A stretch of DNA of 64,000 bases from Azorinus chamasolen. Taxonomy: Eukaryota; Mollusca; Bivalvia; Cardiida; Solecurtidae. Under the pieces are notes generated by a model, which did no database searches, was not told the origin of the DNA, and saw only the letters and a program-made list of their open reading frames with translations. The translations under genes were made by a program, and so were the position numbers. The stretch is from NCBI GenBank assembly GCA_963576725.1, contig OY755252.1, positions 45,113,552 to 45,177,551 of the forward strand. The letters are read 5' to 3'. Of this stretch, positions 4,600-63,143 are shown piece by piece. How positions within the stretch are numbered: position 1 is the first letter of the stretch; each line of letters begins with the position of its first letter.

Positions 4600-4811
4600 T
4601 CTCAGTCATGGCCAGTCTGGGGAGAAGGTTCCAGTGTTTCCTTTGCGGAAAGTGTTTTGTGGCCAATCACGTGCTTAACCGTCACATGAGAATTCATACT
4701 GGAGAGAAACCATACAAGTGTACAGAATGTGATAAACGCTTCACCCAGAAAAGTCATCAAAAGTCGCACATGAAGACGCATCTTGCTGTGAGATTGCGAT
4801 TGGGAAGATAA
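4600..4811 (+). CDS. ZF-pair exon 1 (alternative terminal exon)
   Basis: Terminal exon of a C2H2 transcription factor. Finger 1 begins [10 protein letters not shown], finger 2 begins [10 protein letters not shown]; the linker is TGEKP. Predicted base-contacting residues (-1,2,3,6) are A-H-V-R and Q-S-H-S. The tail [11 protein letters not shown] ends at a TAA. Two in-frame acceptors lie 6 nt apart (CAG at 4597-4599 and at 4603-4605), so the start is 4600 or 4606 and isoforms could differ by two residues. The in-frame ATG at 4608 is probably not a start codon. The closest relative is exon 2, with the same tail and a similar upstream flank. A family D hairpin element ends 136 nt upstream. Confidence 0.92.
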
Positions 4812-7275
4812 GGTCTGAGGCCCAGATAAGATGATGTAAATTAACCCTTTTCCTATTCAATATCTATGTAACAAAAAATAACATCATGAATATTTATTAG
4901 ATCAATTTTTATAACGTAAAGTTTCGCTTTGACAAAAACTGTAGAATCGGATCTATATCACGTCAAAAGCAAACAGAGCAGACCCTGATCAGACGGGTCC
5001 TATTTGAGACATCTGATCTGGGTCTACTCTTTTTGCAAATGCATGAAAAGGTGTTTATATAAAGGAAAAGGTTAAAACACTTTCAAGAATAACTCCTTTA
5101 TTTCTGCACCAACCAGAACCCTGTGTTAGAATACTTTTTAGAGTAATCTCTTCATGGTAACACCATATTACGTTTGTGGGAGAAGTGATGATGTTAGTAT
5201 TTGAATACACACCTCTGTTGCTCTGAACATACATATGACTGAATGTATCTAGAGTACATTAGAAAAGGGTTTGTGGAAACAAGTGTCATGAGAAAGGATA
5301 AGTTTGGAAAAACGTTTATACTGGAGTTATAATTCAGGTACGAACACTAGTGAATATTGTTACATGGATATGAAAGGATTCTTCTAAAACGTAAACAGCC
5401 GAGTTCTTTGCGAGATTGACAAAAGAGCTGTTATAAACGTGGTGAACATAATTATCTTGAAAGAAAGAAATTGTTGAAGTTGTCGTATGTGTATAGATAA
5501 ACAGTGGTCATGAATTTGATTGGCTGAAATGATACAAATGGAATAATGATAATTAATTTTCCAATTGGATATAAATGTTGTACTTGTTATTACACAATTA
5601 TTTATAAGTTATTTTAACCCATTACTCCATGAATATTCATGTAAGAATTAATGACATCATGAATATTAATTAGATTATTTGTTATGATAGCAAAAGGGCA
5701 TAGGAATATTTATGACAGATACTGTAGAATACTATCTATACTATATCGTAAGCAAACAGAGCAGACCCAGATAAGAAGACTGCTATAGGTAGTATAGGAG
5801 CCGTCTGATCTGGGTTTACCCCGTTTGCAAAGGCGTATTTATGGAGGAAACTATCAACTTGACGTGTCACAACAGAAGTTAGCGTTATTTTTAACTTGAC
5901 GTGTCACAAAATCCTGCGTCACATTGTTAATATTTATACTTGGGTGTTCAGTGACTGGATTGTTGAAATCAGAATACTTCCCAATTCTTTTGATAACACT
6001 TGCTGGGAGATGGACAATCTGCAACGAGTATTAGCTCTTTATTCCATAAATATGTTTGTTTATGCCTTTGCTAAGAGAACCTTGTAAACCAACCAGTCAT
6101 GATTTGTGCATGATACTGCAGACTGTTGGATAATGCTATTAACCCTTTCCCTGTTCTATATTTAGTCCAAATTTCAATACCTACTGAATATTCATAGACA
6201 AATTGGTTATAACGAAATGTGGAAGGTGGTACATTCTAGCCATTTTAGAAAGTGAAGACACTGATCTTTCAAATTCTATTAGCAAACAGAGTAGACCCTG
6301 ATCAGACGGCTCCTATAGGAGCCGTCTGATCTGGGTCTACTCTGTTTGCAAATGCGTGAAAACACGTTTATATGAGGGAGAGGGTTAACTTACTCCCTCA
6401 TAGGCTATTTTTAGACTTAATCACTTTGAATTAATCTACTGAAAAGGGGTATTTACTGCAAAAAAGGAACACTTTAGAATTGTGTAGTTTTTAAACCATT
6501 GTGATCAATAGAGAATTTGCTGCTCTGAAACAAATGCTTGTATTCTTTGGCGTATACGGTCGAGAAGTTGGAACTTCATAGTATTAGGGTTCTGTTCAAG
6601 GGCCTAATGCATTGTATATGGATTTTATGTTGCTACAGTAAAACCTTTCTATAACGGCCATTAAATTGTGCTAATTAGTTGACCAGGTATTTAGGGCAGG
6701 CGTCTGCTTAAAGCAATGTGAAAGTAAAACAGAACGCTCCTATAGGAGCGTTCTGTTTTATTTTCACATTGCTTTAAGCAACCACCTGCCTTTAACACAA
6801 TATACTTAATGTAATTTAGTAGCCGTTATAGAGAGGTTTAACTGTAGTTAACATATATAATGTAGTGAAAAGTGATTTAGAAATTGAAAGTTTGCGAAAC
6901 ATTACACGGGATCAGATCTACATGATTTGACACATTTGCTTTATTTGATCATCAGAAGCATAGATGAATAGTCATGTAAGATACAATGACATAAATATTA
7001 ATTAATGAATTTTGTTATAATGGCATATATATGAGTACAGGATTGTTTGGCTATGGCAGAGACTGTAGAACTAGATCTGCATTATTTCATTAGAGGCTAT
7101 GATAGTTTCTTATACTGGTCTGGGTCTATCCTATTCTCTAAACCATGAAACCCCTACCAATGCTTTTTTCTTGTGATGCTGTTCCTATGAATTGATACAG
7201 TACAGACTAGTTGGCAGATCTGTAGCATGACAGGTTAACGATGGTTTCTTAAAAGTATTTTACGATGCATTTCAG
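4812..7275. repeat. Intron after exon 1: B, A, C, D and E1 copies
   Basis: 4841-5075 B; 5076-5225 diverged D; 5614-5850 B; 6139-6388 A; 6385-6530 truncated C sharing its TTAA with A; 6636-6845 E1 with a near-perfect 100-bp palindrome; 6965-7145 truncated B. In 5226-5610 and 5851-6138 I see nothing except a direct repeat AACTTGACGTGTCACAA (5854 and 5892). Confidence 0.75.
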
Positions 7276-7493
7276 TCATGAGAAGTAAAGGCAGAAGATA
7301 CCCATGTCACCTTTGTGGGAAGGATTTTGTGACCAATCAAGTGCTTACCCGTCATATGAGAATTCATACAGGAGAGAAGCCATATGAATGTATGGAGTGT
7401 CACAAACGCTTCACCCAGAAAAGTCATCTCCAGTCCCACATGGTGACACATCTGGCTGTGAGATTGAGAATGGAAAAACAGAATCTTACATAG
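7276..7493 (+). CDS. ZF-pair exon 2 (alternative terminal exon)
   Basis: Acceptor CATTTCAG at 7268-7275, then TC and an in-frame ATG. Fingers begin [10 protein letters not shown] and [10 protein letters not shown], with a TGEKP linker; contact residues are T-Q-V-R and Q-S-H-S. Finger 2 and the THLAVRLR tail nearly match exon 1, and about 80 nt of intron before the acceptor also aligns with exon 1. This points to a recent duplication that included the splice site. An AATAAA lies 17 nt past the stop. No D element is recognisable just upstream, unlike exon 1. Confidence 0.92.
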
Positions 7494-7509
7494 GTTATAA
7501 GAGATATAC

Positions 7510-7515
7510 AATAAA
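7510..7515 (+). promoter_or_regulatory. Candidate polyadenylation signal of exon 2
   Basis: AATAAA 17 nt after the exon 2 stop codon. It fits exon 2 being transcript-terminal, but AATAAA is common in AT-rich DNA. Confidence 0.45.
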
Positions 7516-10284
7516 ATTCTGATTGTTTGAACACTCAAATATATATTGTTAACGATCTTTAACCCTTTCCTCCAATAAACCTTTCTACGCCTTTGCAAAC
7601 AGAGTAGATCCAGATCAGATGGCTTCTGTAGGAACTGTCTGATCAGGGTCTGCTCTGTTTGCTTATGATATAATATAGATATGATTCTACAATTTCTGCC
7701 TTGGTCAAACATTCCCGTGTCTACGAGCAATTTTAACAATTAATACTTGTAATGTCATTACTTCTTACATGAATATTCATGGTGTAAAGGGGTAAGACAG
7801 CTTAATGCAGTGTAAAATTAATGTAGAAAGCACCTCTTGGAGCTTTCTGCATGACTTCCCCCTGCACCAAGCAGCCACCTGCCTATAAGGGTCTAAATTA
7901 TTTGTGTATTAAAAGGTCCAATTATTGAGGTTTAACTGTAAAGTATGTTTAGAAAATGGTTTGTATTATAAAAGGAAGGAGTAGTTTGCTATACTTGATC
8001 ATTCAAGTTTGACTGTTTAGTGAACATTGACATGATATGAACAAAATAGAAGGTAAACAGGAGTACTTTCCCATATTGTCAATAGAGTTGTTATAAAATA
8101 GTTGCACATTAACCCATTTATCTATAAATACACCTTTATATGCATTTGTAAACAGAGTAGACCAAGATCAGACAGCTCCTATTAAAGCTGTCTGATCAGG
8201 ATCTGGTCTGCTCGCTCATAGGATAATACAGATTCAGCTTTTACAAAACTTTCATCCATTTATACACACAGTACACAACAATCCCTTTAATCCTTTCCCT
8301 GTTCTATGTTTGTTACAAATTTCAATACCTACTGAATATTCATGGACAAAATAGTTATAATGAAATTTGAAAGGTGGAACATTGTAGCCATTTTAGAAAG
8401 AGAAACAGATCTTTCAAACACCACTAGCAAACAGAGCAGATCCTGATCAGATGACTCCTATAGGAGCCATCTGATCTGGGTCTTCTCTGTTTGCAAATGC
8501 GTGAAAAGGCATTTGTATAAGGGAAAGGATTAATACACCACAATCCCTCAGTTTGTACTAAATGTAATTATTATGACATGGTACAGATAAGCTTTAGCAT
8601 ATATTAATAGTAAATCTGTAGTTCATTGTTACTATTGTTGCTGATTTTGTACAGAAAAATGAAGTTGTTATCAAGATTTTGTATACAATTGATAGAAGTT
8701 GGTTCAGTTAACATGTAGTTGTTGTCGATTTATTAAAGATCGAGTTTAGTACATAGATATTCATGCAAGTTCCTTATTATGAACATTAATATAATTCTTG
8801 TATCAAAACAAGAAATTTAGGAATTTTATTACCATGGCAACCAGCAGAGAATCCGATCTGTAACGTAAGCAGAGCAGACCCTACAGGAGCTGCCTGATCT
8901 GGGTTTACTTTGTGTGCGAAGGTCTAAATAGCTGAGATTATCGGGTAACAAATTAACCTTTTCCTTCATACAGAAATGCTTTTTCACACCTTGCAAACTG
9001 AGAAGTCCCAGATCAGACGGTTCCAATAGAAGCCGTCTGATCAGGGACTGCTCTATTTGCTTATCTGATCCTATGGTCGAAGGTATCAATTCCCATTAAA
9101 AAACAATTACCTTATAAAAATTAAATGAATATTCATGAAATGATAATTTCATGCATAAATGTTCATGAGGGAAAAGGGTAATCAAGTTTATACAGGGCTA
9201 CAGATGAGGGTGCGTACCCGAATACTAAAATCGTTATTTCTTCACCAAAGCCTTTACTGTGACCACTCTTTAGAATTGTCTCTATGAGACGATTCTAACG
9301 AGTGGTCACAGTATAGGGTTTGGTGGAGAAATGAATGAATTCTTGAAAATATTGTATTTTACGCAACTTAACTGAGCCACGAGTTTTAAAGATTGTGATT
9401 ATTATAGTCTAATTTTTGATTGGAGGTCAGGATATCTCTGTATCAAATGAATATTATCGTTAGATATGATGCATGAATGATATTTATAGTGGCATATGAA
9501 CACACCAAGGTTTCACGGTTGTAACCTTTCACTCCATATTTACATCTTTCTTTGTCTTTGCAAACAGGGTAGACCAAGATAAGAAGGCTTCTGTAGGAGC
9601 CATCTGATCAGGATCTTCACTGTTTGCTTGTGATGTAAGCATAAATCTACAGTTTCTGCCATGGCCAAAATTCCTGCGTTTATATATATGCTATTGTAAC
9701 AATTAATCTTGTTGATATTCATGATGTTATTATGTCTTACATGAATATTCACTGGGTAAAGAGATTTAAACTGAATTCCATAATCAAACAGTGTGACCCT
9801 GATCAGACGTTTATATGAAGGAATATGTATGCAAAAAAATGATTTACATTGGCACATTAGTCGGCTGAGCGGTCATTCGGACTGAAAGTAGACTATAATT
9901 AGGTACTTCGTTTACTTTACTTAAACATGAGAATTGTTGTCTCACATCAGAAACCGTAGAATTCAGAGCTACAGATCAGGGTGCGTACCCAAATACTAAA
10001 ATCATCATTTTGCCACTAAACCCTATACTGTGACCACTCTTTAGAATCGTCTCTTTAAGACCATTCTAAAAAGATTTACAGTACAATGTATATGGTTTGG
10101 CGGAGAAATGAAGGAGTTGAACATGTTTTAATTTATGAACCTATAGCTCTGGAATAGATCCATAGTATTCCATAACCCATCTGATCTGGGTCGTCTCTGT
10201 TTGCATTTAGGCATGACTAAGGAGCAAAAGGTTGAATTAATCTGTAAATGGAGACATATTCTAAAAGGTGATATATACGTATTA

Positions 10285-10510
10285 TTTATGGCTTTCCTTT
10301 GCTCTATGATTTTAATGATAAGTATATCCCTGTAATGTACCCTCATGTTTATAGACTTTCATTTGCTCTGTGATTTTGATAAGTGCATCCCTGACCTCAT
10401 ATTTATGGACTTTCATTTGCTCTATGATTTTGATGATAAGTATATCTCTGTCCCTCATGTTTATAGACTTTCATTTGCTCTATGATTTTGATAAGTGTAT
10501 TTTTTTGCAC
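10285..10510 (+). repeat. Tandem repeat, 4 units of 54-64 bp
   Basis: GCTCTRTGATTTTRAT recurs at 10301, 10365, 10419 and 10477, with TTTATRGACTTTCATT between. Confidence 0.85.
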
Positions 10511-10661
10511 CTTTGCATAGATTATACCCACATCAGATTGCTTGTGTTGGAGCTGTCTAATCTGGGTCTGCTCTATTTTCCTGTGGAAATATTTAGATTA
10601 CTTCCACCATGGCCAAACTTTCCTGAATTTGGGTTGGGTCCCAAATTATAGCTGTTATTTT

Positions 10662-10895
10662 TAATCCTCCGCCTTGAGGCGACGGAGCATAAAGTTTTCC
10701 CCTTGTCTGTCTGTATGTCTGTCCTGTGAAATTTTTCATCAAAGATTTCTTGGCTTGTGTATGCTGGAATTAAATAATTGAAATTTGATCTGAAGCTTAT
10801 AGTGAGTTGTACCATGGCTCCCCTATTCAGGTCTGTCGTTCATCTACTTGCTGTTTGCCGCGGGGACATCCTAGTCCCATGGACACATTTTCTTT
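10662..10895 (+). mobile_element. Helentron-like fragment 1
   Basis: Opens with a hairpin (CCTCCGCC...GGCGACGG), then a CTGTCTGTATGTCTGTC tract, as in the longer elements of this window. The 3' end is not clear, so it is probably truncated. Confidence 0.5.
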
Positions 10896-11529
10896 TATTC
10901 TTAAATGAATGTTCATGGTGTCAAAGGTCAATTCCTGTACACACAAGATGTCTGCTCCAGCTAATAGGCATAAATTAAAACATTTTCAACAATAACTTCT
11001 CCACCATCCCTACATTGTGACCACTCTTTAGAATGGTCTCTTCGAAAGGATGGTCATAACATTAAATACGGTTTGGTGGAGAAATGACGGTTTTGGTATT
11101 TGAGTACACATCTTTATCTGAAGCTCTGTCTGCTCCAAAATTGTCACATCACAATTTGAAAATTATTTTACATTTAAACTTGGAAGAGTCAAACTGTTCA
11201 GATTCTGATACATAGTCACACATGGCTTCCGACTTCGACTGTTTGTAACTCTGCCGATCAAGTGTTGATTGTTTGCTACAAGTTAATAATAAAACATAAA
11301 AAAGTTTACTTACCTCCATGTTTTTGTCTCCAGACTTTACTCTACTTTGTATACTTTTATATTGTTGTTGTATTCAGGTTTTATACTGGTACTGCTGATG
11401 TAAAATCTTCCAGTGTTTTATGTTATGGCTTTAGAGTACATGAGCTCGTCCTTAGTGTTTGGAATCAAACCAAGTAATGTTGATTATGATGCAATACAAC
11501 CGACTGATGATCAAGTAATAATCAATCAT

Positions 11530-12131
11530 TTTAACTCTTTCCTTCATGTAAGTGCCATTTTACGCATTTGCAGATAGAGTAGACCCAGATCAGATGGTTC
11601 CTATAGGAGTCGTCTGATCAGGGTCTGCTCTGTTTGCTAATGGAATTCGATAGATCTGTTTCTTTACTTTCTAAAATGGCTACAAGATTCCCACTTCCTT
11701 ATTTCATGAATGTTCAATAGGTATTGAAATTTGGAAAGGGTTAAAACTGAACAATTTTAATATTCCAATTAAAACGCCAAAGAACATTATTAATGCTGCT
11801 GTACAAATTATAAAGTCAATAATTGATTATGACAAAATTAGTATCGATAGTAGATATACTTTTTCACTCAATCTTCGATTATAATTGTTAATCAACACTA
11901 CCCGTCCTTTGCTTTAACTCTTTCCCTCATAAAAACTCGTTTTCACGCATCTGCAAACAGAGTAGACCCAGATCAGACGGCTCCTATAGGAGCTAATGGA
12001 ATTTGATAGATTTGTTTCTTTAGTTTCTAAAATTGCTACAACATTCCACATTCTTTTGTCAGTGAATATTGAGTAGGTATTGAAATTTGTAATAAACACA
12101 GAATAGGGAAAGGGTTAATACATATACTCAC
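11530..12131. repeat. Two reverse A copies before the NHL-like exon
   Basis: 11530-11744 and 11914-12118, both reversed A with TTAACTC left ends. The second has lost the right half of its palindrome. Confidence 0.8.
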
Positions 12132-12252
12132 CAACTGACCACTGGGCGACAGCTGATGAACACACTGTTTATATTGTCACTACACAGACACACACATCCA
12201 TTGTCATCTACAGCTCTTCCATGTGGATACTGTAACCGGTCTTGTAAATTTC
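12132..12252 (-). pseudogene. Isolated NHL-repeat-like exon, antisense to the ZF array
   Basis: On the minus strand, TTTGAAAACAG precedes a 121-nt segment that ends at a consensus donor G|GTGAGT. Read with the first two bases completing a codon, it encodes NLQDRLQYPHGRAVDDNG followed by CVCLCSDNINSVF, with no stop. YPHGxAVDDNGxV...CSDNxNSV is the pattern of an NHL beta-propeller blade as in TRIM/NHL proteins. No other exon of such a gene is recognisable nearby. It could be an exon of an antisense gene, an unused relic, or a fragment captured by an adjacent mobile element (Helentron-like sequence begins about 50-100 nt away). Confidence 0.5.
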
Positions 12253-12301
12253 CTGTTTTCAAATAAATTAAAAATGAATTAATAAGATAATAAAAAGTAA
12301 A

Positions 12302-12915
12302 TATGTCCCCCCAAACGAAGTTTGGAAACACTTCTTCTTCCCGCATGAACTGTTATGTCCCCCAAACGAGGTAGGAGGACATATTTTGTTTACTCCCTCT
12401 CTTCTTCTTCTTATCCTTTCTTCCAATTTTTGTTCTTGCTCTTTTTCTTCCACTGTGAACGTGTCCAACTAATTCTCTGTAAGTTTTGGTTTTTGAAATG
12501 TTGCCATGGTAACTGAATGGTGGACTATGGTCAAAAATTAAATATTGTTCGAATTTGCTTAAAGCAGTTATGGTGGGGTATTTGGGTACCCCAAACTCAA
12601 TCATAGGTGTTTTACAGGAGTTGAGTTACCATGGTGACAGAGTGCTGGTCTTTGATAGAAATTAGAAGATTTTTTGCTGAAAATTGTTAACTTAATGCAT
12701 ATATATGGGTACTCTGAACTTAAGGGCAGGTGTTTCAAGAATCCTGGTTGCCATGGTAATCTGGTAATGGCATGTGATTGGTGAATATATATTTTACTCT
12801 TCAATACATGTCGTCCGTTTATTTTGGATGACATTCTGTGGCGGATTCCGTTACAATTTTGATGTAAATAATTGATTAATGATGTGATTATTTGTTGTAC
12901 ATAGATATTCATGGT
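12302..12915 (+). mobile_element. Helentron-like element 2 with about 123-bp tandem core
   Basis: A hairpin start (ATGTCCCCC...GGAGGACAT near 12354) is preceded by a partial duplicate of itself at 12303. Core units anchored on GTTRCCATGGTRA recur at 12500, 12625 and 12747. The 3' boundary is vague. Confidence 0.5.
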
Positions 12916-14171
12916 TGATAGGGGTATGTTGCAGATGGTGAAATAAAGATGTATAAACGAATTTTGTGCAGATAAGTTATTGTTCCAAAGGTCTTCAAAT
13001 AAACTGTATTTTGGAAAACTATATAAAAGTGCTTGAGTATTTCTCTACCCTACCCTACCTTACTAGTATTCATTATGATTTCATCTCCTAGTCAGTTATA
13101 ATGAATACACAAATCAGACCTTGACATATATGTAGTAAAACCCCGCTAATGCGACCACCTAAAAGAGGTATAATTCTAGTTGCTAGATGTAGGTGGTAGC
13201 TTAATGCAGGACAAAAGTAATGCAGAAAGCTCCTAGAGGAGCTTTCTGCATTACTTCTGCCCTGCGTTAAGCAACCACCTGCTTATAAAGACAACCATGT
13301 GTATTTATTAAGTGGTCGCATTAGAAGGATTCTACTGTATATATGGGATATATGGGATGATGAAGAGCACAATAAAGACAAGTCAATACCTGCAGCTCTG
13401 ATTCCAGTAGATGTTTCTACAAACAGAATTCTTTGGTACAAATTTACAGTAAAACCCCTTTAATACGACCACCAAAACTGGGCATTATTCTGGGTGGCAG
13501 AGGCAGGTAGTAGCTTAATGTAGGTTGGCTCATAGGAGCTTGCCACATGACTTTCGTCCTGCACAAGGCAGCCTCCGGCTTATAAAGTCAGAAATGTTTA
13601 TTCCTTAAGTGGTCGCATTAGAGGGGTTCTGTTGTAGTTGTGAAAATATTTGGGAGCTGTGGTTTATTGGGTAGCAGGTTCAGATAATTAACTATTTTAA
13701 CCCATTACCTCATAGGCTATTTTTAGATCCAACCTCATTGAATAAATCTACTGAAAAGGAACATTTACTAGAGGAAAGGACATTTTTGAAATTGTGCAGT
13801 TCTGAAACATGATTGTGATTAATAGAGCATTTGCTCCTATGGAGCTAATGCTTTATTGATCACAATGCTTTCAAAATGTGACTTTTACAGAGGCGTCAAA
13901 AAGGGAATGGGTTAACCCTTTCTTTCATATAAACACATTTTCATGCTTTTGCAAACAGAGTAGACCCAGATCAGACTGCTCCTATAGGAGCCATCTGATG
14001 AGACTGTGCTCTGTTTCCCCGTGGAATTTGAAAGACCTGTTTCCGTTACTTTCTAAAATTGTGTCCATGAATATTCAGTTGGTACCGGTACTTAAATTTG
14101 GAATAAACATAAAAGATATAATTTTCTTTTGGGTATATAATCCCATCTCCATAAATGCGTCTTTCTACGCC

Positions 14172-14315
14172 TTTGCAAATAGAGTAGACCCAGACCTCCT
14201 CTGATGAGGGTCTGCTCTGTTTGCAAATAGAGTAGACCCAGACCTCCTCTGATCAGGGTCTGCTCTGTTTGCAAATAGAGTAGACCCAGACCTCCTCTGA
14301 TCAGGGTCTGCTCTG
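14172..14315 (+). repeat. 48-bp triplication of a MITE core
   Basis: TTTGCAAATAGAG starts at 14172, 14220 and 14268 inside a reverse family B copy (14138-14462). The half-palindrome AGTAGACCCAGACC...GGGTCTGCTCT is repeated three times. Confidence 0.9.
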
Positions 14316-14636
14316 TTTGCTTTTGACATGATATAGATATGATTGTACAGGTTTTGTAATGGCAAAAAAAAGTGTTGAAAAGTTTACCTTTTGAAACAGC
14401 AGCTAATAAATATTCATGATATCATTATTTCTTACGCGAAAATTGAACAGGGAAAATGTTAAAGTATCATTCTCACTTCATTACCATTGGATGGTAAAAC
14501 ACCTCTAATGTGACCACTTAATGAATAAATATGTGTGTCTTTATTATGAAGCAGGTGGTTGCTTAATGAAGGAAAAAGTAATGCAGAAAGCTCCTAGGAG
14601 CTTTCTGCATTACTTTTGTCCTGCATTAAGCATTAC

Positions 14637-14790
14637 TGTATTTACAACTGCTGTTCCTATTCCTGACAAAGTGTCAAGATTCTTACCACGTTACATTTGG
14701 ATATTTGCAAGTGATGTTCCAATAGTGTCAGATTCTTTCCACGTTACCTTTGTATATTTACAAATCACTAGTTGTACGCCTGTTCCTAGT
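14637..14790 (+). pseudogene. Decayed tandem copies of the exon 3 acceptor region
   Basis: Three degenerate units share the pattern GATTCTTACCACGTTAC, then TTTGGATATTT(A/G)CA, then TGTTCC. They resemble the 40 nt around the exon 3 splice site (TTCTCACCACATTGCCTTTGGATATTTACAG, then GAAATTCC). The AG is AAG in one unit (near 14710) and lost in the others. No finger-coding sequence follows. I infer relics of duplicated acceptor regions; a simple local tandem repeat is the alternative. Confidence 0.5.
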
Positions 14791-15404
14791 TAACTGACAA
14801 ATTCTTGTTCCTATCAAAAATTCTTGTTCCTATCAAAGTGTCAGATTTTAATACTTTGCCTTAAAACCCTTTCCTTCTTATAAACACCTTTTCACACCCT
14901 TACAAACAAGGAAGACCATGGCTCGTAATGGAGCAGTCTGATCAGGGTCTGCTCTGTTTGCTGAGGAAATTATATTAGAACTGACTACGCCATTAATGAT
15001 TATAAAAATTCAGCTAATAAACATCCATGATGTCCTTATTATTGTTGCATGAATGTTATAAGCAACAGGGAAATGGTTAATATTTTACAGTTCAAATTCA
15101 ATTAATCCTTCCTTTCATATAAACGCCTTTGTAAACAGAGAAGACCCAGATCAGACCGCTCCTTATGATAGGAGCCATTTGATCAGAACCTTATTATCTA
15201 GCTTCTACAGTTTCAGCCACAGTGCCAAATAAGCCTGTATTCATTCACCATTATTGTAAATATCGGCTAATTAATATTCATGAGGCCATTATGTATTTCT
15301 TAAGTAAATATGAATGAGGAAAAGAGTTAAAGTGTCCAAATCTGTCTGATTATCAAATTCTTATCAAATTGCTGTTGGGTACTTGCAGCTTCAGGTGATA
15401 TTCT

Positions 15405-15594
15405 CAGAGGTCCAGATAAGATGCGTGAATAAAAACATTTTCAAGAATAATTCCTTTATTTCTCCACGAAACCTTATGTTGTGATCACTCTTTAGAATCG
15501 TCTCGAAGAGACGATTCTAAAGAGTGGTCATAACAAAGGTTTTGTGGAGAAATGACGGTTTTAGTATTTGAGTATGCACATTTGTCTGTTGCTT
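15405..15594 (+). mobile_element. Family D MITE upstream of exon 3
   Basis: CAGAGGTCCAGATAAG start. The core CTTTAGAATCGTCTC/GAGACGATTCTAAAG is a perfect palindrome. It ends 48 nt before exon 3. Confidence 0.9.
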
Positions 15595-15641
15595 GGGTTC
15601 AAATATCGAATTCTCACCACATTGCCTTTGGATATTTACAG

Positions 15642-15901
15642 GTGAAATTCCTATCCTTGGTTACAAAGACAACTGGGCCTGTCCATTCTGTGACAAAGTC
15701 TGCAAGAAAAAACAGAACATGAAAATCCATGTTCGTATCCACACTGGAGAGAAACCGTACAGGTGTACATTCTGTCACAAATGTTTCACGCAGCGCCACC
15801 ACTTGCAGCAGCATTTGACAGCGCGGCATATACACGAGCTGACTGGATCAAACGAACAATTTAATTTAAAGTTACAGTTGACAAAACAAAGTCCATTCTG
15901 A
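15642..15901 (+). CDS. ZF-pair exon 3 (alternative terminal exon)
   Basis: Acceptor GATATTTACAG ends at 15641, followed by GT and GAA. A leader (GEIPILGYKDNW) precedes the fingers, which begin ACPFCDKVC and YRCTFCHKCF. Contact residues are K-Q-N-I and Q-H-H-Q. Finger 2 uses H-x4-H (HLTARH), the only such spacing in the array. Finger 1 has C where most C2H2 fingers have the core F/Y. The tail is long, about 24 residues after the last His, and ends in a stop. A D element ends 48 nt upstream. Decayed copies of this acceptor region lie near 14.64-14.79 kb. Confidence 0.92.
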
Positions 15902-18453
15902 ACATCTACAAATGAGCATTCCTGTGAACCGTTCGGATGTAATTCTAAGAAACACTGATGTGATTTTATTATCCCTTTCCCTGTTGAATATTCATGTAAG
16001 AATTAAATTATATGACATCATGAATATTTATTGCTGAATTTTTATAATGGTTTATGACTGTATGTACACAGAATGTTTTGGTATTGGTAGAAACTGTATT
16101 CAGATCTACTATAGTTTGACACACAAACAGAGCAGACCCTGAAAGTACAGCTCCTGCTGGAGCCATGGGATCTTGGTCGACTGTGTTTACAAAGGCTTGA
16201 AAAAGCATTTGTATATAGGAAAGGGTTAGTTTACAGAGCCTCGTAACACTTAACCTATTACTCAATATATGTGCCATTTACACCCTTGCAAACAGAAAAG
16301 ACCCAGATCAGGCGGCTCCTGTCTGTTCTGTTTATTTATGAAATGATTTATAGATATGATTCTACAGTTTTTACCAGTTCAAAACTCATCTTGATATTCA
16401 TGCGTACATTATTTCTTACATGAATATTTACGGAGTAACAGGTTAACTCTAGCAGTGGATTTGCACTAACACATGATCGAGTATCAGCGCTATAGATAAA
16501 GGTGCGTATCCAAATGCTAAAATTGTCATTTCTCCACTAAATCCTATACTGTGACCACTGTTCGAGATGAATCTAATGAGTGTTCACATGTACAGTATAG
16601 GGTTTGGTGGAGAAATTGAGAAATTATTCCTGAAAATGATTTAATTTACGCATCTTATTTGGAACTCTGTGTAACATGAATGATGATGTCTTATCAGGAT
16701 CCAAACAGTGTGACACTGACTAAAATTTGGAAGAGAATTGTAGCAGATTATGGTTACTCGTGCAAAGATTTAGGATCAAAGATTTATAAAATATTGACCA
16801 AGTGATATCCTGGCATAGTCAGTTGCAATAGGTATATAATAATGACTTAACCCTTTCCCTGTTCTATGTTTACTCCAAATTCCAATACCTACTGAATATT
16901 CATGGACAAAAATAGTTATAATGAAATATGGGAAGTAAAAAATATGGAAAGTAAAAAATTGTAGACATTTCAGAAAGTAAACAAACATGATCTTTCAAAT
17001 TGCATAAATAAACGGAGGAGATCCTGATCAGACGGCTCCTATAGGAGCTCTGTGATCTGGGTCTACTCTGTTTGCAAATTCGTTAAAACATGTTTATATG
17101 AAGGAAAGAGTTAACCTTGTTGAATATTCATACGAGTAAAAAATGACATCGTGGTTACTTAATGCAGGGTGAAGTCTGCTCTGCTGGCAGCTTTCTGCAT
17201 CATGCCTTTCACATTGCATTTAGCAGCAACCTTCTTACAGTTCTTAAACCATTCCCTCATAGGCTATTTTTAGATCCAACCACTTTCAATAAATCTTCCC
17301 AAAATGAGCATTAATTGGAACCATGGAATTTTTTTAGAATTTTGTAGTTTGAAACCATTGTAATAAATAGAACGTTTGCTCCTATAAGGGCAAATGCTCT
17401 ATTTATCACAATGATTTCAACAAGTGACTTTTACAGAGGCGTAGAAAGGCATATTTATGTAGGAAAGGGTTATTTAACCCATTCCCTCATAGGCTATTTT
17501 TATAGGCATCGTCTTTGAATAAATCTACTGAAAAGGAGCAGTTTCTTCTACTAGAGAAAAGAAAACTTTTAAAATTATGTTGTTTTGAAACCATTGTGAT
17601 AAATGGAGCATTTGCTCCTGTAGAGCAAATGTTCTGTATATCACAATGGTTTCAAAAATGACTTACAGAGGCGCCAAAAGGTGTCGATATTGTAAAAGGT
17701 TTGATATGTGACAAGTCATTGTAATGTATATAATACTTTGCCAAGAATAATTGTAAATAAATTTCAGAATCAAATTCTTGCTACTTTTCATTTAACACCT
17801 GAAATGGTTTAAACTTGTAAACTGTCATTTGTGAACATTGTAGACTGTGAACAGAGAGTGGAACCTTGTAATCAGGGACATATAAGATTTGTCATTCAAA
17901 ATCGTAGAGCAAATTGTATTCATTCATTCTGAAAAGACTCTGATATTAATGAAATAGAGCAGTAACGGTTAGAGCTATATAGATAAAAATGCATACTCCT
18001 GTAGGAGCTGTCTGATCAGGGTCAGCTTATGGAATTATATAGATTTGATTCTACAGTTTTTTGTAAAGTCAAAAAGCCCATTGAAAAATTATCTTAAAAA
18101 TGAAAAATGAATATTCATGAAAAAATCATTTCACACATACATGCTCATTAGGGAAAGGGTATGGAGAAAAGACATTTCCTCCTAGCAACGCATTTTGGTG
18201 TCCCTGTAAAAGTCACATTTAGAAACCATTGTGATAAATAGAGCATTAATTTTGCTCTATTTATCACAATGGTTTCAAAACTACACAATTCTAAAATTCT
18301 CCTTTTCTATAGTTAATGCTCCTTTTCGGTTGATTAATTCAAAGAGGTTGGGTCTAACTATAGACTAGGAGAGAATGAGGTATGAACTAATTTGTCCATC
18401 CAGACAACAATTTACAAGGCATTTGAAAATGATCGAAGCAGAGTGAATTTGAG
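15902..18453. repeat. Intron after exon 3, part 1: B, D, A and C copies
   Basis: 15968-16228 B; 16250-16445 B reversed; 16485-16669 D reversed; 16847-17114 A; 17115-17235 B/E2 mosaic; 17243-17472 and 17474-17702 two head-to-tail C copies; 17993-18162 B reversed, truncated; 18175-18382 C reversed. 17703-17990 shows nothing. Confidence 0.75.
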
Positions 18454-19004
18454 TTAACTCTTTCCCTGTTTTCTATTTATTCCAAATTCCAATACTTACC
18501 GAATATTCACAGACAAAATAGTTATAATAAAATAAATATGGAAATAGGAACATTGTAAAGATTTTAGAAACTAAAGAAACAGATCTATCAAATTTCATAG
18601 GCAAACGGAGCAGACCCTGATCAGACAGCTCCTATAGGAGCTGTCTGATCTGGGTCTTCTCTTTTTACAGGTGGGTGAAAAGGCATTTATATATGAAGGT
18701 AAGGGTAAACAAAAATCTGAGATAATGGGCACATAAAACTGCTATAACCCTTTTCCTCATATAAATGTGTTTTCACGCATCTGCAAACAGAGTAGACCCA
18801 GATCAGATGGCTCCTAGAGGAGCTGTCTGATCAGGGTCTGCTCTGTTTGCTAACGAAATCTGAAAGATCTGTTTCTTTTACTTACTAAAATTGCTACAAT
18901 GTTCCACCTTTCATATTTCATTATAACTATGTTGTCCATGAATATTCAGTAGGTATTGAAGTTTGGAATAAACATATAACACATGGAAAGGGATAACTTG
19001 TTTC
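18454..19004. repeat. Facing A copies upstream of exon 4
   Basis: 18454-18718 A forward and 18743-18996 A reversed form a 540-bp inverted pair: arms of about 250 nt separated by about 25 nt. Confidence 0.8.
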
Positions 19005-19100
19005 TTTACAAAACCAATATTGTGAACACTTGTTAGAATTGTCCCATGGAGAATATTGAACAAGTGGTCACAACACATAGGGTTTATTGGGAAAAAAGTG
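19005..19100 (+). mobile_element. Diverged family D core upstream of exon 4
   Basis: ATTGTGAACACTTGTTAGAA...CAAGTGGTCACAACACATAG and GGTTTATTGGG: only the inner part of D is left, about 85 nt before exon 4. Confidence 0.7.
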
Positions 19101-19184
19101 GAATCATTGACTGAAATTGTTCAGTTTAAAACATCATATAGCTGTAGGAGGGTCATTGATCATCATACTCATCTTTCGTTTCAG

Positions 19185-29712: not shown

Positions 29713-29924
29713 ATTATTCTTCAATCAATGTACACACATACCAGAAGTATATTTGTGATGATTGCGGACGGAACTTCTCATCAAAACAAAATCTGAAGCG
29801 ACACATGCGCCTACATACAGGCGAACGACCATTTCCTTGCACCATGTGCGACAAAAGATTCAACTCCAAATGGAACATGAAGTGCCATCTTTTATGCCAC
29901 ATGGATCGTTCTGTGAAACACTAG
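29713..29924 (+). CDS. ZF-pair exon 6 (alternative terminal exon)
   Basis: Acceptor AATTTCTTTCAG ends at 29712, then AT (D) and a leader YSSINVHTYQ. Fingers begin YICDDCGRNF and FPCTMCDKRF with a TGERP linker; contact residues are S-Q-N-R and S-W-N-C. It ends HMDRSVKH and stop. The FNSKWN helix in finger 2 is shared by neighbouring exons 6-9 (FNSQWN in exon 7), so this block looks like a local duplication series. Confidence 0.92.
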
Positions 29925-32382: not shown

Positions 32383-32564
32383 GTCAACGGAAGAAGTTTC
32401 CTTGTCATGTTTGTGGACGGTTCTTCTCAACAAGACAAAATATGAGAACACATGTACGCCTCCATACAGGAGAGAAGCCGTACCCCTGTACGATGTGTGA
32501 CAAGAGGTTCAACTCCCAATGGAACCTCAAATGCCATCTTTTCCGCCATATTCACCAGGAGTAA
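32383..32564 (+). CDS. ZF-pair exon 7 (alternative terminal exon)
   Basis: Acceptor CTCTGCTTTCAG ends at 32382, then GT and QRKKFPCHVCGRFF. It has 59 codons and a TAA, the shortest in the array. Finger 2 begins YPCTMCDKRF; contact residues are T-Q-N-T and S-W-N-C. Finger 1 contacts match exon 4 while finger 2 matches exon 6, so finger combinations are partly shuffled. There is no ATG upstream of the fingers. AATAAA follows 68 nt past the stop. Confidence 0.92.
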
Positions 32565-46097: not shown

Positions 46098-46101
46098 AAC
46101 G

Positions 46102-48783
46102 ATGGGTAAAACCAGGGCAGACATACAGAAAGCCTACAGAGAGAGGAAGAAGGCACGCGAGGGTAATACATACCTGAAAAAAGAAACAGAGCGTGTGAAA
46201 TCTTACTATAAACCCACAACAGAAATAGGGCCAAACAAGTTAAGAATAAGACGAGAGCTTGCCAGATTATCTATGCAGAAATTAAGACAAAAAGTGAAAA
46301 AGGCTTCAGACCAAGGTCACACCCACCCACGTGTAGAAAACGATATTCAGCCAACAACTGATACATGTACTACAGAAAGGTCGGAGGGACCGTGTGACTC
46401 TACAACTGATAACCCTACACCAAGTACTTCATGTAGTACAGAACACAGAAAAATGATAGTACAAATGAATTTTGGCGAACGGCGTGGCAGATGGAAAAGG
46501 AGTAAAACCCTTAAGAAAGCAGAAAACAAAGTAAAGAAACTCGAACTTCAAATACAATCACTAAGAAGAAACAATAACAAGTTGCGTAAACGACTGGAAA
46601 GAGTAAATTCCAGTAACACCCCGAAAAGAGCCAATACTGAGACAGTATCGGTTATTACATCACCTGCCTCTAGTGTTCCACTAACAAATAATGAAAATAC
46701 CGGAAAGGCAACTGACAGAAAACGAAAAATTTCTGAAAATACCCAAGAGCTCACCCCAAAAAGTAAATCTATTAGTGTATTGAGAAGTGAAGGTTTAAAT
46801 CCAAGAAAACACAAACAGCTTGTTAAACAATTAACATATCACCACAGCATTGTTGCAGAAGTAAAGAGCAATCTGGCACCAGACCGAGGGAGAGCTAGAC
46901 AACGTTCAGCACTGCAGATAGTATGTGGCAATGTACTGAAAAGATACAGATTGGCTTCCAATTCCAGTCGTGTACTTGGTGTGAACAGAAGTCAAATAAG
47001 TAAAACAGCAAAGGGAAAATTGATACAAAAACGAAGAAAAGTTGCTGAAAGGGTACAAATATCCAACACTGTCACAAGCTTTTTGCAACGAGATGATAAT
47101 AGCGCGTGTCTACCGGGCAAAAGAGATAAAACAAAAACAAAACATGGCATTACTCAAACGAGAGTACTTAATGACTATTTATACAATTTACACCTTAAAT
47201 TTAAGTCGGAAAATCCAGACATAAAGATAGGCTTAACTGCATTTTCTAGTCACCGCCCCAAATACATCAAACTTGTGCGATTTAGTGCCAGAAGAACATG
47301 TTTGTGCCAAAGACACCAGAATATCGCCCTGAAGGTGAAAGGTTTAAAACTAGCAGGAACAATAACAACAGAAAACCCCGATATTCTAATAGGTCAATTG
47401 TCCGATGAAGAAATAATAGGGAAAATAAGAGACTGTGACTCTGAAACAATCAAATATGCGCAGTGGAAAAGGAAGGAAGTTGAACATAAGGGGCGGGTGA
47501 CAAAAAGGATGCTCATTGAAAATGTTGAACAGCCTAAGAATGAGTTCATAGATATGTTTAAGAACGACCTTGCAGAATTCAGAAGCCATACAGCAAGAGT
47601 GAGAACCCAGTACATACAAATAATGAACCTAAAAGAAAGAATGCCAATTAACCACGCAGTTTGTCAAATGGACTTTGCCGAAAATTACTCGTGTGGACAC
47701 GCCGACGAAATTCAAAATGCATACTTCGATAAATGTTCAGTTACACTTCATCCGGTGGTGATATACACAAAAAATACCGAGGGTGAAATATCACACACTT
47801 CACATATATATGTTTCAGACACTCCAGCACATAATTCAGGTACGGTGTATGCTTTTATGAAAAGAATAATAGACCAAATCAAATCCACAAGACCAGACAT
47901 AGTTTGCATCCACTATGTCACCGATTCGCCCACATCCCAATACAGAAACAAAAGTATGATGTATCTTGTAGCAAACCATGATCAAATATTTGGTGCAAAG
48001 GCTTCTTGGCAGTACTGGGAAGCGGGTCACGGTAAAGGCCCCTGTGATGGCGTCGGGGGTTCTTCGAAACGTCTTGCAGATTTAGCTGTGAAACGACACA
48101 TAGCTGTTATTCAGTCTGCCGAAGATTATTACCACTGGGGTTATTCTCTCGATAATAGTCAAATTAAGTATTTCTTCGTACCAAAAGACGAGTGTGACAA
48201 GGCAACTGCAGAGCTATCGTGCCTAAATATGAAAGCAGTAAAAGGCACATTATATATACACAGTGTTGTACACTTGAAAACTGGCGAAATTGCTGTGAGA
48301 AACACGTCGTGTTTTTGTGAAAACTGTTTCATTGACGGGGACTTCAAATTAAGCTGTGACGGTTGGAACAGACATGTTATAAATCAAAGTGATAATATAT
48401 TAGAAACGAACACGCCAGTAGAAGAAGTGACCACTCCAGCATTAGTGCCACCAATACAGGAAATGGTCCATGGTCATGATGAGAATTTCGTGGAAAATAG
48501 CTTTGTAGCGGCTGTCTATAACGGACACTGGTACATAGGCAAGATTATTGAATACGACCCAGAAGATGACAGTTTACAATATCATATTTCGTTTATGGAA
48601 CATGGTAAAGGCAAAGTAAGCTATACATTTAAATGGCCAAACAAAGACGATAAAATATGGATAGCCGAGTCTGAAATATTATGCCCGATTGACGAGCCAG
48701 TTCCTTATGGCACACGGAAAATGTACAAACTACATGAGGCAGACATGAATAAAGTTATTAGCAACTTTGCGAAATACAAGTAA
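46102..48783 (+). CDS. Putative DDE-type transposase, 893 aa, unclassified family
   Basis: Uninterrupted 893-codon ORF. The N-terminus is basic with a YRERKK motif; residues about 134-170 form a K/L/R-rich coiled coil; SRVLGVNRSQISK (about 289-301) looks like a small helix-turn-helix. RTCLCQRH (398-405) adds Cys/His. A probable RNase-H-fold core carries QMDFAENYSC (D524), YVTDSPTSQYRN (D608) and YWEAGHGKGPCDGVGG (E640, or D649), which fits a D-x83-D-x31-E triad. A Cys cluster CFCENC follows at 737-742. The C-terminus (about 798-865, VAAVYNGHWYIGKIIEY, then a FKWP motif) resembles a Tudor/SH3-like barrel. I recall similar uncharacterised proteins in invertebrate genomes but can give no family name. 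The transposase role is inferred from motifs plus flanking inverted repeats; a host-adopted gene is less likely. Confidence 0.7.
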   Translation: MGKTRADIQKAYRERKKAREGNTYLKKETERVKSYYKPTTEIGPNKLRIRRELARLSMQKLRQKVKKASDQGHTHPRVENDIQPTTDTCTTERSEGPCDSTTDNPTPSTSCSTEHRKMIVQMNFGERRGRWKRSKTLKKAENKVKKLELQIQSLRRNNNKLRKRLERVNSSNTPKRANTETVSVITSPASSVPLTNNENTGKATDRKRKISENTQELTPKSKSISVLRSEGLNPRKHKQLVKQLTYHHSIVAEVKSNLAPDRGRARQRSALQIVCGNVLKRYRLASNSSRVLGVNRSQISKTAKGKLIQKRRKVAERVQISNTVTSFLQRDDNSACLPGKRDKTKTKHGITQTRVLNDYLYNLHLKFKSENPDIKIGLTAFSSHRPKYIKLVRFSARRTCLCQRHQNIALKVKGLKLAGTITTENPDILIGQLSDEEIIGKIRDCDSETIKYAQWKRKEVEHKGRVTKRMLIENVEQPKNEFIDMFKNDLAEFRSHTARVRTQYIQIMNLKERMPINHAVCQMDFAENYSCGHADEIQNAYFDKCSVTLHPVVIYTKNTEGEISHTSHIYVSDTPAHNSGTVYAFMKRIIDQIKSTRPDIVCIHYVTDSPTSQYRNKSMMYLVANHDQIFGAKASWQYWEAGHGKGPCDGVGGSSKRLADLAVKRHIAVIQSAEDYYHWGYSLDNSQIKYFFVPKDECDKATAELSCLNMKAVKGTLYIHSVVHLKTGEIAVRNTSCFCENCFIDGDFKLSCDGWNRHVINQSDNILETNTPVEEVTTPALVPPIQEMVHGHDENFVENSFVAAVYNGHWYIGKIIEYDPEDDSLQYHISFMEHGKGKVSYTFKWPNKDDKIWIAESEILCPIDEPVPYGTRKMYKLHEADMNKVISNFAKYK

Positions 48784-50493: not shown

Positions 50494-50729
50494 GTGACCT
50501 TGGGATCGATATGTCTGACCAACACCCAGCTTTTTCTCATCTCGCCCAGATATCTCTTGCAACTGTGCGGACCTGTACCGTGTGTGGGAAACCATTCTCC
50601 AACAGGTTTGCGTTGACCATGCACATGCGTATCCATACAGGGGAGAAACCATTTGAGTGTGACATCTGCGGAATGAAGTTCTCAGTGAAAGGCAACATGA
50701 AGCGTCACAGACTGGTTCACATGTCATAG
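50494..50729 (+). CDS. ZF-pair exon 10 (alternative terminal exon)
   Basis: Acceptor TTTTCAACAG ends at 50493, then GT (G) and [18 protein letters not shown], a leader of about 27 residues. Fingers begin [10 protein letters not shown] and [10 protein letters not shown] with TGEKP; contact residues are N-F-A-M and V-G-N-R. The exon stops almost directly after the last His (HMS, stop). It is the first ZF exon after the 5.2-kb transposon, with its acceptor about 310 nt past the right end. Confidence 0.92.
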
Positions 50730-59428: not shown

Positions 59429-59670
59429 ATACAGTGTTGGGTGATTTGTCAACTTCCGATGAGATCCAGCATCCAGATTTTCCCAGGCTGTATCGCTGTC
59501 AGCATTGTAATCGGCCATTTCCTTCACGCTCGCATCTTCTCGTACATGTGCGTATTCATACGGGAGAAAAGCCATTCGTCTGTGAAGTCTGCTCAGCTGC
59601 TTTTAACAGGAAATACAATCTGTTGCGACACATGAAGTTACACAAAGCTGAACTAATGGATAACATTTGA
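59429..59670 (+). CDS. ZF-pair exon 11 (alternative terminal exon)
   Basis: Acceptor TCTGTTACAG ends at 59428, then AT (D) and TVLGDLSTSDEIQHPDFPRL. Fingers begin YRCQHCNRPF and FVCEVCSAAF with TGEKP; contact residues are S-S-H-V and R-Y-N-R. The tail is HKAELMDNI and stop. A family C element (59164-59393) ends only about 35 nt before the exon, so its 3' end sits in the branch-point region. Confidence 0.92.
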
Positions 59671-60524: not shown

Positions 60525-60720
60525 GTATATTCATTGGGAAGGATGATTCTGCATTTATTGGATACTGACCCATCTACGGTATATCTTGTTGAAACACGTG
60601 ATCTGTATATTCATTGGGAGGGACGAGGCTCAGCATTACTTGACACTTGTGTCATGTAGAACACGTGATTTGTATATTAAATGAGAAGGATGAAGTAACA
60701 CTATTGGATAGTTCTGAACA
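60525..60720 (+). repeat. Degenerate 67-80 bp tandem repeat, 3 units
   Basis: GTATATTCATTGGGARGGA recurs at 60525, 60605 and (diverged) 60672, with CACGTGAT between units. Confidence 0.8.
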
Positions 60721-62952
60721 ACCTATGAGGTCTTGTATTCTGTGTATTCATTTGCTGTCTTGGATTATTGCATTCGGGGATAATTTCAGTATCACAATAA
60801 TTCATGAATATTCATATAAGAAATGATGACACCGGAAACGTCTTAAGCTGGTGTTTTATATATGACATGTGAATACAGGATGTGTTGACCATTGATGAAT
60901 CTGTTCATTTCCATAAGCTAACAAAACAAACCCTGATCAAACACCTCCTACAGGATCTGGGTCTACGTTGTTTGCAAATGTGTCTTTATTTAGGCACTGG
61001 CACTAGATCGAGAAAGACTATATAGTTTGTTTATAAATAACACCTTGTACATTAATGTGTATTATGTACCAAGTGCTATTATTAAAACTATAGTTTGTTT
61101 TTTCAATGTTATGCCAGTGCACTAGGTTAATGAATATAGTGTCATATTATGACTATTGATAATCTGCAAAGAGTATGGATGCGAATAAGCGATTGAATAA
61201 AAGTGAACAAGCATCTACAAATTGTATGTGCAAACTGAAACGTTTATTGGAGTGTCTTGTGTCAGACATGTTTGTTACCATTATGTATATGTTTGAAGGA
61301 CACATTGTAGTCGTGCAATTTATTTTGCTAAGTAGATCAATGTTACAATGTTGTGTTTAAACTGATCAAACATTTGAAATATAATATCGATACATTTCAA
61401 GTGTGTTCTTGTTCATAATAACATGTAAATTAACCTACCCCAACCCCATGTACACATTGACCATACAGGTGGTATTGCCCTACACATGCATACCTACTGC
61501 TTTATATCAGAGGCAAAGGTGAGAGGAAAGTACTGTACTACATGGGCTGTACACAAAGTTGCCATACGCAGGAGGCAAAGATGGAGAGAATAGAGTTTAT
61601 TACATGGGTCTACTTTAAAGGTAGTTTACACCAAAGGTAGTCAGGCTATTATACCTACCTGCCTTATATCAGAGGTAAAGTTCAAAGGCGGATGTAAAGT
61701 CCGAAGCCGAAGGCGTTAATAACGTGGGTCTGCCTCAGAGGTAGTAAAACATATACAGAGGTGTAGATAACTACACCTTGTTGGTACTCAAAAGGCAATT
61801 CTAATGAGTACAAATATGACAGGGTTTAAGAAATACAGAAAAAACCTTGGACTCGTGTTTAGTCAAGCTACCTTTAATAGTCAAACTAAATGTAGTCAGA
61901 AACCTATTCAAGATAAAAACTTTTCTCAAATTCAGGGATTAAATGTTTAACTCGTTCCTTCAGATTACTTCTTGGCACCTTTGCAAACAAAGACCCAGAT
62001 TAGACAGCACTATAGGAGTTGTCTGATCAGGTTCTGCTCTGTTTGCATAAGAAATACTATAGATCTGATTCTTATGTTTCTGTTAAGGCCAAAATTTTTA
62101 TACTTCTTAACGCATTCCCTCCTAGACTACTAGTATTTGTAGACTAACGTCTTTGAATAAATCTACCGAAAAGAAGCATTTACTAGAGAAAAGGAAACAT
62201 TTAGAATAGTGTTGTTTTGAAACCATTGTGATAAATAGAGCATTTGCTCCTATGGAGCAAAATTTTATGCTCTATTTATCACAATGGTTTTAAAATGTGA
62301 CTTTTACAGAGAGGCCAAAATGCTCACTAGGAGGGAACGTGTTAAATTAAGACTCAAAGACGAATAAACTGACACAGAATTTTTTCCTTTCTTTATTCAC
62401 GGTTTTTCCTCCTTCATTCGACATTTAACCGTATTTCATTCATTGAGGTTGCTTATCTCGATAATCATTTCTGATGATATTGTTGCCATGTGTGTCAAAC
62501 ATTTAACATAATGTGTGTCTATATGTATTAGTTGTACTTGGTGAGGTTTGCGCTTTGTAGTTTGTATACAATTCAGAGCAACAGATAAACATGCATATAT
62601 ACTCAAATACTAAAATCCTCATTTCTTCACCGAACCCTATTTTGTGACCACTATTTAGAATCATCTCTTTGAGACAATTCTAAAGAGTGGGTCACAACAT
62701 AGGGTTCGATGGAGAAATAAGTTATTCTTGAAAATGTTTTAATTTATGTATCTTATCTGGACCTCTGATACATATGTATGTTGCCTAAAATGTAATTACT
62801 GAACTCTTTGCTTATGTCATATGTTATACTAGTGAAATTCTCAAAGCTGTTTGTGTTGACAGGCGTTTTATGTGGAAACTGAGTTTCTTTTTAAAAGTAA
62901 TTGTACCTTTGTGAGCACATTAAATTCTAACTTGTACTCTTGTGTGTTTCAG
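60720..62952. repeat. Intron before exon 12: B, A/B, C and D copies
   Basis: 60790-61000 B; 61030-61100 weak hairpin (AATAACACCTTGTACAT / ATGTACCAAGTGCTATT); 61948-62098 A/B reversed; 62107-62344 C; 62574-62767 D reversed. 61101-61947 has no recognised repeat family; it holds loose repeats of AGAGGCAAAG/AGAGGTA and no ORF I can support. Confidence 0.7.
62574..62767 (-). mobile_element. Family D MITE upstream of exon 12, reversed
   Basis: CAGAGCAACAGATAAAC start and TATCTGGACCTCTG end show the opposite orientation to the other exon-proximal copies. It ends about 185 nt before exon 12. Confidence 0.9.
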
Positions 62953-63143
62953 GTGATCGCCATAGATTTGTGTGCCTCGTTTGTGGAAAGGGATTCTCAA
63001 GGCGACAGCACCTCATTCACCATGAGTATATCCACACAGGAGAGAGACCATACCATTGTCAGCTATGTGAGAAGCGTTTCACCCAGAAATCTCACCTGCG
63101 ATCACACATGATAACACACCTTAAACAGATGAATGTCTCGTGA
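62953..63143 (+). CDS. ZF-pair exon 12 (alternative terminal exon)
   Basis: Acceptor TTGTGTGTTTCAG ends at 62952, then GT (G) and DRHRFVCLVCGKGF. Finger 2 begins YHCQLCEKRF; the linker is TGERP. Contact residues are R-Q-H-H and Q-S-H-S. Finger 2 is nearly that of exons 1 and 2, although those lie some 56 kb upstream at the other end of the array. A reverse-oriented D element ends about 185 nt upstream. Confidence 0.92.

Follow-up and report, generated by a model that had tools for sequence, protein, structure and literature searches.

Do the twelve short zinc-finger reading frames that lie within 64 kb of the genome of the bivalve Azorinus chamasolen belong to a cluster of small genes, or are they interchangeable ends of a single one? 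The stretch in question, here called the window, is 64,000 nucleotides long (C18:45113552-45177551, in a 1.72-Gb genome of 137 contigs). Reading the genomic sequence, we consider it highly probable that the window covers the central part of a single transcription-factor gene with swappable terminal exons, each encoding a pair of C2H2 fingers. The predicted gene would span about 141 kb on the plus strand (C18:45060837-45201443), with three constant exons upstream of the window and at least 23 alternative ends.

Within the window, twelve short open reading frames (ORFs) encode two C2H2 fingers apiece, all on the plus strand; Pfam recognised the fingers in all eight of the twelve that were scanned. 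Upstream of finger 1 each of the twelve has a CAG acceptor in phase 1, with two bases left over ahead of the first full codon, and each is closed by a stop codon. Exons that start in phase 1 and end in a stop can only be terminal. The original prediction of twelve same-phase two-finger exons with a 3' splice site and a stop was thus borne out in full, down to its outer limits, 4600 and 63143, which are exact. The exons are, in window numbering:

4600..4811, plus strand: E01, alternative terminal exon with two C2H2 fingers, stop TAA; tandem duplicate of E02
7276..7493, plus strand: E02, alternative terminal exon with two C2H2 fingers, stop TAG; tandem duplicate of E01
15642..15901, plus strand: E03, alternative terminal exon with two C2H2 fingers, stop TGA; reciprocal best hit is Mercenaria tail P0175
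19185..19378, plus strand: E04, alternative terminal exon with two C2H2 fingers, stop TAA; reciprocal best hit is Ruditapes tail P0198
25459..25655, plus strand: E05, alternative terminal exon with two C2H2 fingers, stop TGA
29713..29924, plus strand: E06, alternative terminal exon with two C2H2 fingers, stop TAG
32383..32564, plus strand: E07, alternative terminal exon with two C2H2 fingers, stop TAA
35658..35890, plus strand: E08, alternative terminal exon with two C2H2 fingers, stop TAA; reciprocal best hit is Ruditapes tail P0196
42405..42646, plus strand: E09, alternative terminal exon with two C2H2 fingers, stop TAG; outscored by a second phase-1 acceptor at 42423
50494..50729, plus strand: E10, alternative terminal exon with two C2H2 fingers, stop TAG; outscored by an out-of-phase AG at 50550
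59429..59670, plus strand: E11, alternative terminal exon with two C2H2 fingers, stop TGA
62953..63143, plus strand: E12, alternative terminal exon with two C2H2 fingers, stop TGA

A profile built from the twelve pairs found no thirteenth pair on either strand of the window, its next-best match there having an E-value of 0.36, whereas the lowest-scoring of the twelve reached 3.2e-26. More fingers had been expected past both edges, and the flanks (200 kb upstream and 60 kb downstream) supplied them: eight additional intact pairs lie 35.8 to 6.0 kb before the window, all on the plus strand, and three further pairs follow it at 69496-69788, 74062-74339 and 83814-87892. The last of these is an alternative end of very different size, an exon of 1,358 amino acids (aa) with a phase-1 acceptor and the finger pair at its end. 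All 11 exons outside the window have a phase-1 acceptor, so that the locus, over about 124 kb, has no fewer than 23 alternative terminal exons, and all 23 combine a phase-1 acceptor with a stop. No finger pair was found on the minus strand in the window or the array; all 23 are on the plus strand.

The common phase is also apparent when phase is ignored in choosing the site. Taking the best-scoring AG within each ORF regardless of phase (for the 1,358-aa exon, within the first 400 bases only), phase 1 came out for 10 window exons of 12 and for 20 of the 23 at the locus, where chance would give one third; when the best AG was sought throughout the 260 bases preceding finger 1, the count was 18 of 23. 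In the three misses of the within-ORF test (phase-1 sites 4600, 50494 and 69496) the phase-1 acceptor is present and is outscored by another AG.

A shared upstream exon ending in phase 1, whether BTB or of another kind, had been predicted and was indeed found; it is not a BTB exon. The predicted constant part comprises three exons encoding 329 aa and lies 13 kb upstream of the first pair:

C18:45060837-45060926, plus strand: constant exon 1, located via the N-termini of relatives
C18:45061448-45061604, plus strand: constant exon 2, located via the N-termini of relatives
C18:45063991-45064731, plus strand: constant exon 3, from a 284-aa ORF 49 kb before the window with the look of a transcription-factor linker

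Exons 1 to 3 can be joined in frame (phases 0, 1 and 1). The 3' end of exon 3 reads GATTACA followed by GTAAGT, so that the peptide ends in ..GSQDY with an A to spare before the donor; this one left-over codon base (phase 1) matches the finger acceptors. Exon 1 shows a stretch with 73-91% identity to 16 relatives and exon 2 has 72-83% identity to relatives (in alignments starting at residue 31), and the two carry the family's N-terminal module, MxxPDMDVIKEIPGYKVILKA...FLGFCLKxHH. Exon 3 contains RHEPYP, VKVEP, VKLE and ELEITGVEPG. All linker features of the bivalve family (RHEPYP, VKxEP, VKLE, ELEITGVEPG and a Y before a phase-1 junction after A) are therefore present.

That family emerged from a protein-database search with constant exon 3, which returned 113 proteins at E<=0.001 among 684 candidates, 79 of them species-named (Ruditapes philippinarum, Mercenaria mercenaria, Mya arenaria, Dreissena polymorpha and Mactra antiquata). 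Dreissena and Mercenaria are placed in Imparidentia, and Ruditapes, Mya and Mactra belong there likewise. Within each of ten groups formed by shared prefix, the proteins have identical fronts and diverge at a single position, following ..QGY, where their tails begin to differ. The annotated isoforms of Ruditapes, Mercenaria and Mya start with this N-terminus and part at the junction, each going on to its own finger tail; isoform models of the shared-front form thus exist for three related genera of bivalves, and a fourth has two models. Isoform numbering reaches X43 in a Ruditapes entry. All 79 species-named relatives continue past the junction with N, S, K, T, R, I or M, the residues that A-first codons can give (S and R by part of their codons), which make up 0.41 of background residues. 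Judged by these residues, the relatives' junction is the same as here, phase 1 after an A. Counted by pattern, the tails of the 79 hold two fingers in 66 cases, three in 8, one in 4 and none in 1. The annotated genes of Ruditapes, Mercenaria, Mya and Dreissena (LOC132745172, LOC123540335, LOC123541529 and others) thus resemble the Azorinus locus in N-terminal module, linker and junction; they bear different tails, and over the shared part they have about 43-50% identity to it. Their isoforms carry borrowed names (sal-like, luna-like, ZBTB49-like), so that the design is hidden in the annotation, and it is the design that explains why one clam gene is labelled sal-like, luna-like and ZBTB-like at once.

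Single alternative ends can also be followed between species. Against 73 relative tails, 10 of the 23 locus exons gave reciprocal best hits, spread over four relative groups. E10 has 73% identity over 51 aa to its reciprocal best hit, Mercenaria tail P0184, and E03, E10 and the exon at 69 kb match tails of one same Mercenaria group. Searches with the fingers themselves were uninformative: the twelve-pair profile (best 120 of 2409 matches) recovered mainly multi-finger proteins of many animals, and one finger exon returned a single candidate, a Mytilus finger protein. One relative, Dreissena polymorpha LOC127837700 isoform X1 (P0224), has by Pfam a DUF3504 domain at its end instead of fingers. 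We take DUF3504 to be linked to a mobile-element recombinase, and its presence here looks like capture as an alternative terminal exon.

The design appears to extend to other loci of the Azorinus genome. The N-terminal module gave 50 genome matches, 34 to exon 2 and 16 to exon 1, mostly at the same loci; 12 of the 34 exon-2 matches lie on this chromosome (C18) and the others on C15, C3, C16, C1, C2, C4 and C17, and many of the 34 are weak or have internal stops. Fingers were sought with one exon of this locus as the query, and the best 150 of 3367 first-look candidates were scored, so that only pairs resembling that exon would be detected. Among the 84 strongest of these (E <= 1.5e-10), we counted a match as associated if it lay downstream of an N-terminal copy, on its strand and within 250 kb. 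Associated in this sense were 64 of 65 matches in short open frames and 1 of 19 in long frames. Five lower-ranking matches with frames of at most 160 aa (two on C8 and one each on C5, C7 and C4) were by eye not near an N-terminal copy, which makes the association 64 of 70 over all short-frame matches listed. This locus contributes 15 of the 64, and with it excluded the count is 49 of 50. The 64 fall at 12 loci, eight of which, this one included, have at least four; C18:10727341, 34130706, 36426637 and 62485126 have a single match each. In 19 finger exons picked from the top matches at seven other loci and fetched, the best acceptor was in phase 1 in 18, and all 19 close with a stop. One other locus, C18:56221299, was searched for exon 3, and the 2.1-2.3 kb following its exon 2 yielded none. 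The idea of one gene choosing among finger-pair exons gains support from the shared exon and from the relatives' isoforms, and its scale has to be revised, from twelve exons in one gene to at least 23 in a member of a gene family. We also observed N-terminal copies arranged head-to-head about 20-30 kb apart, at C18:13049009 (minus) and 13070170 (plus), C18:62485126 (minus) and 62506565 (plus), and C16:27295794 (minus) and 27325348 (plus); at both C18 pairs the finger matches run outward.

What, then, is the constant front? Across 14 aligned relatives it consists of a highly conserved N-terminal module of about 85 aa and a long low-complexity linker that keeps RHEPYP, ELEITGVEPG and psi-K-x-E motifs, the last of which we take to be SUMO-type sites. 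BTB as the shared 5' exon was ruled out by Pfam, BTB-profile and whole-genome searches. Pfam found nothing at E<=1 in the three plus frames of the 10-kb stretch with constant exons 1 and 2, and no BTB match in 8 relatives scanned; a BTB profile run over the window together with the 200 kb before it and the 40 kb after it gave no significant plus-strand match (best E 0.47), its minus-strand matches belonging to a neighbour; and a whole-genome PF00651 search listed, among the best 150 of 197 candidates, no plus-strand match on C18 between 13.3 and 45.8 Mb. Between 149 and 132 kb before the window, neighbouring minus-strand exons encode C2H2 fingers, and two partial matches to BTB fall there as well. 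The module itself had no match above cut-off in Pfam (a weak C2-domain match, E 0.06, overlaps its end in one relative), none in NCBIfam, where one match fell far under cut-off, and no PDB match of note (best E 0.51). An AlphaFold2 model of one relative (mean pLDDT 52) has confident fingers and a partly helical N-terminal module of low to modest confidence (block means 38-82), and is too weak for a fold search. By sequence, this points to a conserved domain without description in the libraries used. The Mya arenaria model P0228 is without the second half of constant exon 2, from which the front module may itself be alternatively spliced.

With both parts of the gene in hand, the following mechanism can be proposed. 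Three constant 5' exons would encode 329 aa, the N-terminal module followed by the low-complexity linker, and the strong phase-1 donor at C18:45064731 would be joined, in each pre-mRNA, to a single acceptor out of 23 or more in competition. Every such acceptor would open a terminal exon with two C2H2 fingers and a stop, such that the proteins made from different mRNAs would agree in their front and differ in their DNA-binding end. The choice would presumably be made by cis-splicing together with one poly(A) site per terminal exon. Each finger pair may have its own DNA target. The residues at finger positions -1, 2, 3 and 6, which by rule contact DNA, differ in all 22 pairs parsed, as judged by an eye comparison. 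Two fingers alone read about six bases, and for this reason we infer that the front module may multimerise or recruit a cofactor or partner. One duplicate pair of exons shows purifying selection. The tandem duplication that produced E01 and E02 takes in some upstream intron, and over the finger-pair codons the nonsynonymous divergence (dN) between the two is 0.14 at a synonymous divergence (dS) of 0.68, indicating that the protein has been kept.

C2H2 genes are often clustered, and recent tandem duplicates are present here, both of which would suit a cluster of independent zinc-finger genes with their own promoters and 5' exons and a phase common by descent; the domain scans between exons, moreover, covered only part of the window. 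These scans found only finger domains in window positions 1-9,999 (three plus frames) and 10,002-20,000 (one plus frame), however, and 11 of the 23 ORFs have no Met before finger 1, while upstream there is a constant 5' part whose phase fits, present a single time in the fetched region, and the relatives are annotated as isoforms. Independent genes are therefore hardly credible to us. Transcribing the variable exons separately and trans-splicing them to the constant exons would give the same architecture, and this is what both insect loci of this design, lola and mod(mdg4), use according to PMC11426971 and PMC4667647. The length of the locus and a 903-aa ORF of unassigned kind between E09 and E10 could be accommodated in this way. 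Against it, all 23 pairs are downstream of the constant exons on the same strand, as are 64 of the top 65 short-frame matches over 12 loci, no opposite-strand finger exons of the mod(mdg4) kind were seen in the array, and the layout does not require trans-splicing where cis-splicing suffices. Because N-terminal and finger exons are collinear in those 64 of 65 matches, competing acceptors read in cis are the simplest account, and trans-splicing appears quite improbable.

It is also conceivable that the architecture is real and most exons are neutral by-products of tandem duplication, few of them being used. Three observations, which also count against the preferred reading, lend themselves to this view. 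A broken half-pair with the second finger only (C18:45096794-45096901, plus strand, 16757-16650 bases before the window) resembles an intact exon 2.5 kb further upstream; it is a case of exon death within the array, and not every copy is alive. Constraint in U1-U3, a recent triplet upstream, is weaker than in E01/E02 (pairwise dN/dS 0.07/0.19, 0.14/0.19 and 0.17/0.33). Orthology with relatives is incomplete, 13 of the 23 exons not being reciprocal best hits. Further points weigh against the preferred reading itself: the exon at 69496 has an atypical first finger and a weak acceptor; AATAAA shows no enrichment downstream of the stop codons (present at 11 of 23, where random places gave 10.5), which leaves separate poly(A) sites without support from that motif and tips the question of mechanism neither way; and the relatives' isoform models are automatic annotations. 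Neutral by-products would, on the other hand, sit uneasily with 23 intact reading frames with finger pairs, with a dN well below dS in E01/E02 and with the clear cross-species partners of E03, E10 and the 69-kb exon, and we consider this explanation rather unlikely. A single gene with swappable, cis-spliced finger-pair ends remains the reading we prefer.

The surroundings of the array contain further features. The 903-aa ORF within it (46072-48783, plus strand) had no Pfam match above cut-off and may be a mobile element or a nested gene. Similar peptides (..SKQSRPRSDGS.. / ..EQTLIRGGLGLLYLQ..) recur by eye in many short ORFs of the window, for example at 14046-14421, and point to an abundant interspersed repeat. 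From 126 to 88 kb before the window there are several tandem plus-strand copies of a leucine-rich-repeat-like receptor, one with a frame open over 721 aa, and with an apparent TIR domain as judged by eye. Past the array, at about 112 kb, a large ORF lies on the opposite strand.

If this reading holds, one clam gene could yield a whole set of DNA-binding proteins, and the clam arrays would offer a way to test what such arrays are for. We found no description of this gene family in the limited library of literature searched. As a more speculative extension, which we hold to be possible though less likely than not, DNA-binding modules in imparidentian bivalves might be chosen by exon across the whole genome, in eight to a few dozen genes that each have a constant front and tens of swappable finger pairs, amounting to hundreds of modules with turnover by exon birth and death. 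Such a repertoire would parallel, by convergence, both lola and the expansion of KRAB zinc fingers, with selection acting either on cell identity or on the recognition of changing DNA targets such as mobile elements.

Choice of one DNA-binding end via alternative terminal exons is documented, in PMC11426971 and PMC4667647, for insect BTB genes. Of the 20 isoforms of Drosophila lola, 17 differ in their C-terminal C2H2 fingers (PMC11426971), and its TTK-type BTB domain belongs to a group that the title of that paper calls Arthropoda-specific. The clam locus, as predicted from genomic sequence, shares with lola a constant set of 5' exons joined to one terminal exon out of many, most of these encoding C2H2 fingers in lola, and the single intron phase common to those ends (23 of 23). 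It differs in its front, which is another module with no BTB on the plus strand upstream, and in extent, with at least 23 alternatives at this locus alone and eight loci with at least four finger matches in the genome. Since the shared part is without BTB, the locus is lola-like in logic and not a relative of lola. For mod(mdg4), a constant 5' part and at least 30-31 alternative 3' parts are given in PMC11426971 and PMC4667647. The joining of one front to many ends is the same, whereas mod(mdg4) has a BTB front and mostly FLYWCH ends, some on the opposite strand, and the clam locus has neither FLYWCH ends nor variable exons on both strands but C2H2 pairs on one. Mammalian KRAB zinc-finger clusters (see also PMC11952569) likewise tie a large, changing repertoire of C2H2 modules to one front domain, as separate genes with long finger arrays where the clam uses exon choice and two fingers. 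Clams would thus combine the insect type of logic with a different front module, on the scale of lola or above and at several loci in one genome, which suggests that this logic was invented independently.

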